A stretch of 64,000 bases of DNA, from assembly GCA_004332335.1 (NCBI GenBank), contig SISS01000015.1:103218-167217 (forward strand). The letters are read 5' to 3'. Shown here in pieces: positions 22,385 to 25,925 of the stretch; within the stretch, counting starts at the first letter, position 1, and each line of letters begins with the position of its first letter. Source of the DNA: Methanoregulaceae archaeon UXB-2016 (GTDB lineage: Archaea; Halobacteriota; Methanomicrobia; Methanomicrobiales; Methanospirillaceae). A program made the translations under genes and the position numbers. The notes beneath the pieces are model-generated. The model saw only the letters and a list, made by a program, of their open reading frames with translations, was not told the origin of the DNA and ran no database searches.

Positions 22385-24342
22385 ATGCCCGAGCGCTTGA
22401 CCCAGAAGGCAGAGATCGTCGCCGAGCTGGGCGAGCAGGCCGTTCTCCTTCCCGCGCTCGTCCAGCAGGCGCTCGCCGCAAACGACCGGACCAAGTACTA
22501 CTTCTCCCTGCTCCAGACCGCGCGGCAGCAGGCCGAGCGCCCGGACAGGACCGTCCCGCTCCTTCGCGTCGAGCGTGAGGCCGCCGGGATAGAGGACGCC
22601 GCGCTCGACAGGGTTGTGCTGGGAGCAGCCCGGATCGGGGACGAGCGGTACCGGGTCCCCCACCTCGGCCGCATCCTCGAGGGGATCGGGCAGGCAATGG
22701 ACGAGATGGTCAGGCCGTTCGCGATCTCGAACGCGCGCCCGAGGCCCTCGCCTACCGGGCCCGCCTGGAGGTGCTCACTGCCGTCCTGGGCGCCGAGGGC
22801 CTGGACGAGATCGACGGGGCGCGGATCACGGCGATCACCTCGGGTGACCGCTCCGCAGGGGACAGTCTGCACCTCCTCGTGATGGATCTCCACCGCGCCC
22901 TGAACACTCTCCTCGAACAGCTCGCCAACGTGACGATCGACGGTGCCCGCACCTACCTGCTCGGCGATGGGGACCGGGAACTCGTGCAGGCCTTCATGAA
23001 GGGTCTGAACCGTACGGCCCCCCTCAAGTTCAATCATCCCGGCCTCGGCACGACTGTGACACGCGCCGGCGAGCGACTCGTGATCCAGAATGACATCGGC
23101 GTGACCGACGCCCACGTCCTCGTCGTCGCGGTGACCTCGGAGACGGTCACCGTCACCTACACCGACGTGCACATGGCGCGCCTCGCGTTCTTCCATTCGC
23201 TCTTCGATGACTGGGTCGTCGAGTGGTCGGACACCCTCTCGCGGCGGACCACCAGAAAGCAGAGCGGCGGGATCTACCACCTCTCGGTCGGGACGTTCGC
23301 CGTGCCCGACCGGGAGAGGTGCTGCGCGTTCCTCGCCCACCTCGGCTCGCGCCTGGTCTTCCTGATCGACTGGAACAAGGCCCGCAAACAGCTCCGCAAC
23401 TTCCTCCTCAACAAGGATGCCGTGGCCGTGATCCAGCAGGCCGCGCGGCAGGAGACCGGGCACCGCGGGTTCCTCGAGCTCGGCGGCGACCAGCTGATCT
23501 ACGCAGCCCTCGACCTCGCCACCAGGGTGCCCCTCCGCTACGGCGAGCCCCTCCACCAGATCCTCGGTCGCGAGAAGACCATGGAGTACCTCTCGTGGGT
23601 CCTCCAGGCCTCGGCCGAGGGGCTGCTGCGGGGCGAGTCCCGCCTGCTGATCCAGGACCGGTGCCGCGGGGAGCTCCTCCGATACTTCAGGACTGCCCAG
23701 GTCGAGCTTCTCGAGCGTGCCACCGCCCACGCAACCCTGCTGATCGACGTCGCGCTCACACTCCAGACCTCGGTGATCGCCCTGCGGTCCGGCTCCGGGA
23801 CAGATCGCCTGCCGCGGAACGCGACCCGGGCCAAGCGCTGGGAGCGGGAGGCGGACCAGATCGTCTCCGAGGTCCGGACGCTCTCAAGAAGGACCGAGGA
23901 GATCGAGTTCTTCTCGAGCCTGATCACGGCCCAGGACGACGCGCTCGATTACCTCGAGGAGGGCTGCTTCTACTCGACTCTCCTCACGGACGCCACCCGA
24001 TACCCGGAGAGCAGCTCCGGTCTCGAGGAGATGGCCGCCCTCTCGGTCTCCGCCGCACGCGAGTTCATCCGCGCCCTCTCGGCCGCGCAGTTCACGCGCT
24101 CGGGCTCGAGCCGCGAGGAGATGCAGGAGTTCTTCTCCGCGGCCAACCGGGTGATCGCGATCGAGGAGGAGTGCGACGACGCGTATCGTCGGACCGAGCA
24201 CTGCCTGATCCGGGAGGTGGACAACGACGGCCCGCTCTACGCCTGCACCCGGCTCTCCCTCGCGATCGAGGAGTCGACCAACTCCCTGATGAAGGCCGTC
24301 TACGTCCTCCACGACAACATCCTCGAGGAGCTCCGGCGATGA
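22385..24342 (+). pseudogene. Large helical protein with PhoU/DUF47-like C-terminus, one frameshift
   Basis: ATG 22385 opens 105-110 good residues (MPERLTQKAEIVAELGEQ ... ILEGIGQAMDEMV). Sense then passes to another frame, where VRDLERAPEALAYRARLEVL continues to the TGA at 24342; one base is missing near 22700-22715. The joined product is about 650 residues, soluble and rich in helix. The last 200 residues (RTEEIEFFSSLITAQDDALDYLEEG ... LAIEESTNSLMKAVYVLHDNI) look like the DUF47/PhoU four-helix bundle; the middle is not recognised. The downstream PPDK-like gene starts inside its stop codon (ATGA). The clean remainder suggests a very recent break or a sequencing error. If the gene is truly broken, translation could restart at GTG 22771. 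Confidence 0.65.
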
Positions 24343-25925
24343 CGGGGACGATCGCGGTCTTCGGGACCAATCGCGACACGGGTGCCGTATCGCGCGACAG
24401 ATACGGGAACAAGGCCGCGGTCCTGGCCGAGATGACCGAACTCGGGATCCCCGTCCCGCCGGGCTTCGCACTGCCGGTCGAGGTCTGCGAGGAGTATTAC
24501 TCCGTGGATCGGCAGCTTCCGGCGTGGGCGCACGACCAGCTCGCGCTCGGGATCGGGAAGCTCGAGAACACGACCGGCCTCGGGTTCGGGTCGCCTCGCC
24601 GCCCGCTCATGATCTCGGTCCGATCCGGGGCCGCGGTCTCAATGCCGGGGATCATGCAGACGATCCTGAATGTCGGCCTCTCCAGGGAGACCGTCGGCGG
24701 TCTCATCTTTCGCACCGGGAACCCCCGCTTCGCCTGGGATTGCTACCGCCGGCTCCTCGCCCAGTTCGGGGAGGTCGTCCGGGGGCATGACCCGATGCGA
24801 TACGGGGTACTCCTTCGCGAGGCGATGGAGGAGGAGGGAGTTCCGGACGAGGCAGAGCTTGGCACCGCGAGCTTCAGAGCGCTCGCAGGCCGGTACGAGC
24901 GGGTGCATGCAGAGCTCGGAACGCCCTTTCCATCCGATGCGGTAACCCAGCTTAAGGAATGTACCGTAGCCGTGCTCGAGTCCTGGGGAGGACCCCGTGC
25001 GGACGCCTTCCGGCGCCTGGGGATGGCCGGAGCGGCCCGTGGCACGGCCGTTACGGTGCAGGCGATGGTCTTCGGCAACCTCGGGTCCGCCTCGGGGGCG
25101 GGAGTGGCCTTCACGCGGAATCCCTGGAGCGGCGAGCCCGGCCTCCTCCTCGACTTCCGCTTCGGGGCGCAAGGCGAGGAGGTCGTCTCGGGAGAGCAGT
25201 CCGGCCTCGACCAGGAGACGTTCGCGCGCGTGATGCCCGAGCAATACGAGGCACTCGGCAAGATCGGGACGCAGCTCGAGCGACACTACGGCGACATGCA
25301 GGACGTCGAGTTCACGATCGAGGAAGGGCTGCTCTTCATCCTCCAGAGCCGGACGGGCAAGCGTTCCCCGCTCGCGGCGCTCCGGATCGCGGTCGACCTC
25401 GTCGCCGACGGTCTGATCGGCCCGTCCGCGGCGCGCGACCTGCTCGCCGGGATCGACCTCGGCGGCATCCGGATCCGTCGCGTGCTGGGGGGCGGCGACC
25501 CGCTTGGGGTCGGTACACCCGCCTCCGGCGGGGTTGCGTCGGGCACGATCGCCTTCACCGGCGACCGGGCCGAGGCGGACGGCGCTGACGGAGCCGTGAT
25601 CCTGGTCCGGCCGACCGCATCGCCCGACGATATCGCCGGGATACATGCTGCCTCGGGCCTGCTCGTAGCGCGGGGCGGCCGGACCTCGCATGCGGCCGTG
25701 GTCGCGCGCCAGCTCGGCAAAGTCTGCGTGGTCAACTGCCGGACGCTCTCCTTCGATCCCCTCCGCCACCGGTGCACGATCGGGGAGACCGTCCTCCGCG
25801 AGGGCGACCTGATCTCGCTCGACGGCGACACCGGGCGCATCTACCGCGGCGAAGTCACCACCGTCGAGGAGAGGCCGAGCGCGCTCGTGCGTGCTGCCCG
25901 TGCCTGGGACTCGCAGCACCGCTGA
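24339..25925 (+). CDS. PPDK-like phosphotransferase lacking the PEP/pyruvate barrel
   Basis: A 528-residue protein with the first two-thirds of pyruvate phosphate dikinase. The nucleotide-binding part has GNKAAVLAEMTELGIPVPPGF, SVRSGAAVSMPGIMQTILN, FAWDCYRRLLAQFGEVV and MQDVEFTIEEGLLFILQSR. The swivelling domain follows with the phospho-His in GGRTSHAAVVARQLGK (near residue 450), then a normal domain end. The protein stops where the 330-residue TIM barrel should begin, although nothing looks broken. It can presumably take phosphate from ATP on to the His, but needs another acceptor domain. The upstream PhoU-like protein overlaps by 4 bases and is the obvious candidate partner. Function is inferred only. 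Confidence 0.85.
   Translation: MTGTIAVFGTNRDTGAVSRDRYGNKAAVLAEMTELGIPVPPGFALPVEVCEEYYSVDRQLPAWAHDQLALGIGKLENTTGLGFGSPRRPLMISVRSGAAVSMPGIMQTILNVGLSRETVGGLIFRTGNPRFAWDCYRRLLAQFGEVVRGHDPMRYGVLLREAMEEEGVPDEAELGTASFRALAGRYERVHAELGTPFPSDAVTQLKECTVAVLESWGGPRADAFRRLGMAGAARGTAVTVQAMVFGNLGSASGAGVAFTRNPWSGEPGLLLDFRFGAQGEEVVSGEQSGLDQETFARVMPEQYEALGKIGTQLERHYGDMQDVEFTIEEGLLFILQSRTGKRSPLAALRIAVDLVADGLIGPSAARDLLAGIDLGGIRIRRVLGGGDPLGVGTPASGGVASGTIAFTGDRAEADGADGAVILVRPTASPDDIAGIHAASGLLVARGGRTSHAAVVARQLGKVCVVNCRTLSFDPLRHRCTIGETVLREGDLISLDGDTGRIYRGEVTTVEERPSALVRAARAWDSQHR

Follow-up and report, generated by a model that had tools for sequence, protein, structure and literature searches.

Pyruvate phosphate dikinase (PPDK) passes the beta-phosphate of ATP to a histidine on a swivelling domain and from there to pyruvate, and the reaction is reversible (PMC5371819). 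Rifampin phosphotransferase has an ATP-grasp domain and a swivel histidine domain on a single chain with a swapped acceptor domain (PMC4844700). HpeHI, CreHI and PpsAB are two-component dikinases made of two separately encoded proteins, one with the ATP-grasp alone and one that joins the swivel to an RPH-like acceptor domain; phenol dikinases are among such systems (PMC12167813). Here we analyse two adjacent genes, gene 1 and gene 2, in a 64,000-nucleotide stretch (the window) of contig SISS01000015.1 from Methanoregulaceae archaeon UXB-2016, a 2.37 Mb Methanomicrobiales metagenome-assembled genome (Table 1). Gene 2 is a PPDK half that lacks the phosphoenolpyruvate (PEP)/pyruvate barrel, and gene 1 is its constant partner, with a PhoU-like tail. 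The pair is obligate and widespread in several archaeal and bacterial phyla, and we tentatively read it as a two-component dikinase acting in phosphate and polyphosphate (polyP) metabolism, with inorganic polyP as the most likely second substrate.

An initial annotation, made from the sequence of the window, proposed an undescribed phosphotransfer system in which the gene 1 protein or a ligand bound to it would take up the phosphate, a role that gene 1 may have. Dikinases split over two proteins had already been described (PMC12167813), so the division into two genes is not new, but searches of the open literature turned up no account of this pair, although one may exist elsewhere. What sets this pair apart is the position of the split, its PPDK type, a putative acceptor protein without a known relative and the PhoU-like tail. 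As in HpeHI, CreHI and PpsAB, dikinase chemistry would be divided between two proteins, and the acceptor domain would not be the PEP barrel; the pair differs in distribution, in carrying ATP-grasp and swivel on one PPDK-type chain and in having a partner composed of a new domain and the PhoU-like tail. Gene 2 shares the ATP-grasp and swivel histidine domains with rifampin phosphotransferase, whose acceptor domain is unrelated to gene 1.

Profile and alignment comparisons uphold the initial view that gene 2 has the nucleotide and phosphohistidine motifs of PPDK and ends before the barrel. Pfam recognises PPDK_N at 120 bits and the PEP-utilisers mobile domain at 74 bits, and gives no match to the PEP-utilizers_C barrel. 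The PPDK model TIGR01828 (EC 2.7.9.1) scores 491 bits, under its cut-off of 843, with the aligned part covering model positions 9-512 of 865; the NCBIfam PEP synthase model scores only 91 bits, and the short-PPDK model NF004531 (PRK05878) scores 379 bits, under its cut-off of 456. Residues 16-524 align with residues 12-527 (of 873) of Clostridium symbiosum PPDK at 403 bits, the identity of gene 2 to PPDKs along its whole length is about 40%, and its end coincides with the barrel boundary. K22, R92, the DMQDxEF/LQxRxGKR nucleotide motifs and H455 of the C. symbiosum enzyme are all matched, and the equivalents of DxE, Q335 and R337 of the PPDK ATP-grasp are identical. H451, aligned with H455, lies within the swivel motif GG(M/R)TSHAAVVAR, and the nucleotide-site residues and catalytic histidine are invariant or nearly so among 23 relatives. 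Gene 2 covers the nucleotide-binding and swivel domains of PPDK, no residue of the first half-reaction is missing, and, judged by these residues, it very probably carries out the nucleotide half-reaction; it departs from PPDK in its missing barrel, its own tree group and its fixed partner protein.

Gene 1 was initially described as about 650 residues overlapping gene 2 by four bases. The ATGA overlap and, in relatives, the length are as described, but the frame is broken in this assembly. Because relatives have a single intact open reading frame (ORF) of 640-650 amino acids, the frameshift probably stems from an error of assembly or sequencing, or possibly from a very recent mutation or inactivation. 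The start is placed at ATG 22385, and an alternative TTG at 22397 fits the relatives' start better. The C-terminal DUF47/PhoU bundle of the initial annotation holds: the match in the window is 21.6 bits, under the Pfam gathering cut-off of 24.4, with PhoU_div at an expectation value (E) of 1.5e-4 over residues 331-497 of the remainder protein, and eight of 17 relatives give DUF47/PhoU Pfam matches with E down to 2.9e-6. In an AlphaFold2 prediction for the complete gene 1 protein of a relative (predicted local distance difference test, pLDDT, 87), the N-terminus is helical, the middle mixes alpha and beta elements, and a long bundle of helices at the C-terminus matches PhoU-like structures (3l39, E 1e-3; 2olt and 2iiu, template-modelling (TM) score 0.8 on target). 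DUF47/PhoU_div regulators share the fold of this bundle, but the bundle accounts for just a third or so of gene 1, and nothing in them corresponds to its other parts.

The middle part is as hard to place as it was for the initial annotation. It has no Pfam or NCBIfam family match, DUF47 being the sole Pfam family detected in gene 1, and comparison of a gene 1 profile with PDB sequences gives chance matches only. A model of residues 1-415 (pLDDT 88, predicted TM score 0.78) finds nothing below E 0.02 in a PDB fold search; matches of gene 1 to influenza PA, Arp2/3 and glutamate dehydrogenase, with query TM-scores of 0.1-0.2, were rejected as noise. The middle is nevertheless strongly conserved across Bacteria and Archaea (HPGL, QNDIGxT, H239, D256, H258, R261, IDWNxxRK, GH), and its invariant D, N, R, K, H and W residues form an enzyme-like set as read from the alignments. 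Six histidines of gene 1 are invariant (H158, H165, H213, H239, H258 and H355, in the numbering of a relatives' alignment). Since the model of gene 1 shows no TIM barrel, the middle does not restore the missing PPDK domain.

The question of whether the two genes always occur together, raised with the initial annotation, has a clear answer at the loci compared. A search of named genomes found 527 gene 1 relatives, and 80 loci were kept for locus analysis; a barrel-less PPDK directly follows gene 1, in the same order, in 77, and the other three are contig ends. These loci span methanogens, Methanoperedens, Thaumarchaeota, Thermoplasmata, Betaproteobacteria (including Accumulibacter and Thiobacillus), Acidithiobacillus, Geobacteraceae, Planctomycetota and others. 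Among genomes of 61 Methanomicrobiales relatives, gene 1 and an adjacent barrel-less PPDK occur in the same 22 (22/22 paired), and seven others have a full-length PPDK without gene 1. Full-length gene 1 is found in exactly five of 300 Nitrososphaeria-class genomes, and a barrel-less PPDK adjacent to gene 1 and scoring as high as paired proteins do (at least 734 bits) occurs only in the same five (5/5), all others reaching at most 629 bits; at least four of the five have a second PPDK match, full-length where listed. The pair is also present in three far relatives, divergent bacteria, among 349 genomes of the Accumulibacter phylum, and on plasmids of cultured Methylocella tundrae (p1; WP_322847396 and WP_322847397) and Aquabacterium olei (WP_109038593 and WP_109038592). 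In a tree of the shared PPDK region, one branch (100/99) separates all 28 paired gene 2 sequences from full PPDKs and other barrel-less PPDKs alike. Distances of gene 1 and gene 2 correlate over 22 loci (r=0.89), as is partly expected from common descent. Gene 1 is almost certainly the functional partner of gene 2.

The initial reading also supposed that the barrel is truly missing, and the host genome agrees: its one PEP/pyruvate barrel lies inside an intact 770-amino-acid PEP synthase, which is also the sole other PPDK_N protein, and no separate barrel gene was found there. The accompanying expectation that gene 2 homologues always occur with gene 1 fares less well. Barrel-less PPDKs without gene 1 exist in Skermanella, Azospirillum, Rhodococcus, M. 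avium and Streptomyces, which weakens the earlier reading, but they group apart in the tree, and the idea that every barrel-less PPDK belongs to this system was rejected. Those of the NF004531/PRK05878 type (Skermanella, Rhodococcus, M. avium) likewise lack the barrel, at about 500-570 amino acids, whereas gene 1 was not seen at the loci examined, the neighbours are other genes and the proteins fall outside the pair's tree group. One kind, of about 570 amino acids, lies near a pyruvate kinase gene in Skermanella and Azospirillum (L168:3926-5632, L173:3866-5581) and is possibly another split dikinase. In M. avium and Diaphorobacter plasmids (L170:3935-9300, L172:1559-5443), a short PPDK with a small hypothetical protein and a second PEP-utilising enzyme looks like another multi-component dikinase cluster. 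Two pairs, from loci labelled Thermoleophilia (L078) and Lysobacter (L109), resemble methanogen or betaproteobacterial copies, and mis-binned contigs or gene transfer are possible.

A role of the pair in inorganic phosphate (Pi) or polyP metabolism is likely. The initial annotation suggested a link to phosphate, which the gene neighbourhood confirms and sharpens to polyP. Same-strand operons that join the pair with ppk1, ppx or CHAD genes recur in methanogens, Methanoperedens, Geobacteraceae and Thiobacillus types (Table 1), with neighbours confirmed by Pfam or by comparison with confirmed members, and CHAD domains are a polyP-binding module (PMC6537752). Genes of the pst/phoU type lie near the pair at three loci, namely L071, L103 (Accumulibacter) and L114 (Thaumarchaeota, together with a CHAD gene). 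PPK1 is present in 20 of 22 Methanomicrobiales genomes with the pair compared with 22 of 39 without it, and in complete genomes of the order in 15/15 compared with 20/33 (p=0.004); across phyla, 19 of 24 pair genomes have PPK1 and two of the other five have PPK2. PPK1 and PPK2 share a genomic neighbourhood with the pair, and Pfam detects no PPK domain in either gene, nor is there sequence similarity. PPK1 works through a phosphohistidine.

In the mechanism that we propose, gene 2 would convert ATP and Pi reversibly to AMP and pyrophosphate (PPi), leaving phosphohistidine on its swivel domain. Gene 1, the sole invariable partner, has to provide the second site: it would take the place of the PEP/pyruvate barrel, with the conserved middle domain binding the second substrate and the PhoU-like tail binding or sensing phosphate and metal. 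Polyphosphate or Pi is suggested as that substrate because the gene neighbourhood points there. Overall, the two steps would amount to ATP + Pi + polyP(n) <-> AMP + PPi + polyP(n+1), and in reverse ATP would be remade from AMP and PPi at the expense of polyP. The computed support consists of the domain make-up, the intact nucleotide and histidine residues, the fixed pairing, the PhoU fold and the polyP/Pi gene neighbourhood. That polyP itself is acceptor or donor is something we infer with reservation, as we do a physical complex and the direction of the reaction. A stronger version, in which the pair is a third, PPDK-derived kind of polyphosphate kinase that moves the ATP beta-phosphate onto polyP or regenerates ATP from AMP and PPi, is possible but doubtful.

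Several observations weigh against a polyP enzyme. A PPK1, PPX or CHAD gene was detected within 8 kb in only 16 of 80 loci, and enrichment over control loci of full-length PPDK and PEP synthase is not significant (9/40 vs 1/20, p=0.08; loci of at least 13.5 kb only), this control being a crude count against 20 loci and suggestive only. The argument for polyP rests for this reason mainly on the repeated, directly adjacent same-strand operons. No polyP gene stands beside the pair in the window, the host ppk1 and ppx being on another contig, and betaproteobacterial pair loci adjoin a B12-dependent ribonucleotide reductase gene instead. The middle domain of gene 1 resembles no known polyP-binding fold in the PDB fold search, and a second synthase would be superfluous in pair genomes with PPK1.

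Other explanations share parts of this evidence. Gene 2 might phosphorylate a conserved histidine of gene 1, with the PhoU-like tail tuning Pi uptake or polyP enzymes and no small-molecule product. Such a phosphorelay would fit the PhoU fold, the pst/phoU genes nearby, the six invariant histidines and the SixA phosphohistidine phosphatase genes beside the pair at five methanogen loci; however, SixA is restricted to one clade, the enzyme-like invariant residues of the middle exceed the needs of a phosphoacceptor site, and a PPDK-type cost of ATP to AMP and PPi would be unusual for signalling, which makes this explanation unlikely. The pair could instead phosphorylate an organic acceptor in the manner of HpeHI, CreHI or PpsAB, the polyP neighbours reflecting phosphate supply or coincidence. 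These systems have the same two separately encoded components, swaps of the acceptor domain are known in dikinases (PMC12167813, PMC4844700), and clade-specific neighbours such as the ribonucleotide reductase and gltA would agree. Yet in HpeHI, CreHI and PpsAB, which are similar to PEP synthase and RPH, the swivel stays on the chain of the acceptor domain, gene 1 could be matched neither to RPH nor to any Pfam family except DUF47, and polyP/Pi operons recur in unrelated phyla, so that an organic acceptor is rather improbable.

It is very unlikely, and largely excluded, that the pair still phosphorylates pyruvate, through a divergent barrel in gene 1 or one borrowed from another protein. The identity of gene 2 to PPDKs speaks for this, as does the absence of full PPDK from all 22 Methanomicrobiales pair genomes compared with its presence in 7/39 without the pair (p=0.04), whereas gene 1 has neither a TIM barrel in its model nor a match to PPDK, the sole barrel of the genome lies inside PEP synthase, and the pair coexists with full-length PPDK in Nitrososphaeria. 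The same coexistence led us to reject the pair as a PPDK replacement, as mutual exclusion in Methanomicrobiales had suggested. The frameshift in this assembly and the loss of the barrel in other lineages could be taken as signs of a PPDK remnant in decay, with gene 1 beside it by accident, but an intact pair kept across two domains of life makes this virtually inconceivable.

Two prokaryotic polyP synthases are recognised, and polyP that still accumulates in ppk mutants has prompted speculation on further enzymes (PMC6864096). An always-paired, widespread PPDK derivative found in polyP operons is a concrete candidate for one of them, plausible and directly testable, which might make or spend polyP. 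At about 3.5 kb the pair is open to direct expression and assay, and it includes a conserved domain without a known fold relative. If it were a third polyP kinase, the enzyme would be common to polyphosphate-accumulating Accumulibacter, methanogens and some Nitrososphaeria-class archaea. Should it run in the ATP-forming direction, polyP and PPi would be coupled to AMP recycling, which might suit organisms that activate acetate by AMP-forming ligases.

Table 1. Features of the gene pair in the window (first eleven rows) and genes adjoining the pair at other loci
Feature or gene order	Position or locus	Strand	Basis or remark
Gene 1, whole	22385-24342	+	ORFs, relatives
Gene 1 5' part, N-terminal helical region, first ~115 codons, frame of 22385	22385..22741	+	Aligns to residues 2-113 of relatives
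Frameshift (indel) site within gene 1 in this assembly	22725..22740	+	DNA alignment with three relatives; frame change
Gene 1 remainder, 535 codons plus TGA	22735..24342	+	46-78% identical to relatives
Gene 1 conserved middle domain (HPGLGTT, QNDIGxT, DVH, IDWN(R/K)ARK, GH motifs)	22861..23479	+	Invariant columns in relatives' alignments
Gene 1 C-terminal PhoU/DUF47-like helical bundle, E/DxxxD motifs	23641..24339	+	PhoU_div match, fold match
ATGA overlap of gene 2 start and gene 1 stop	24339..24342	+	Translation of both ORFs
Gene 2, barrel-less PPDK, 528 amino acids	24339..25925	+	Translation, Pfam and NCBIfam profiles, PPDK alignment
Gene 2 ATP-grasp (nucleotide-binding) domain, about residues 1-340	24339..25358	+	PPDK_N pieces, PPDK alignment
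Gene 2 phosphohistidine swivel domain, about residues 380-510	25476..25868	+	PEP-utilizers 419-499, PPDK alignment
Codon of catalytic His, residue 451, GGRTSHAAVVAR, equivalent of H455 of C. symbiosum PPDK	25689..25691	+	Alignment
ppk1-CHAD-ppx-gene1-gene2	L076, Methanolinea	same strand	
ppk1-ppx-gene1-gene2	L144	same strand	
ppk1-CHAD-phosphoesterase-gene1-gene2	L095, Methanoperedens	same strand	
CHAD-ppx-gene1-gene2	L112, Geobacteraceae	same strand	
ppx-gene1-gene2	L115 and L123, Thiobacillus type	same strand	
gene1-gene2-ppx	L078	same strand	
gene1-gene2-CYTH/CHAD	L086, Methanosarcina	same strand	
SixA-like genes	L076:11576-12076, L144:5811-6317, L083:8597-9028, L072:4311-4802, L069:793-1287		L076 copy over TIGR00249 cut-off

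Further neighbours of the pair are confined to particular groups. The ribonucleotide reductase gene lies on the opposite strand at six betaproteobacterial loci (L102, L106, L113, L116, L119 and L122), with the family checked in L119 only; gltA and nrdJ were set aside as functional clues, being clade-specific gene order. The SixA-like genes beside or near the pair, all at Methanomicrobiales loci, might serve to reset the phosphohistidine. A small conserved protein of 100-120 amino acids recurs near the methanogen pair (L087:11622-11981, L088, L091, L094, L069, L089 and L090); it has no NCBIfam match and by eye is perhaps MTH938/DUF498-like. At another locus (L147:7864-16826), a full-length archaeal PPDK lies within 5 kb of a same-strand ppk1.

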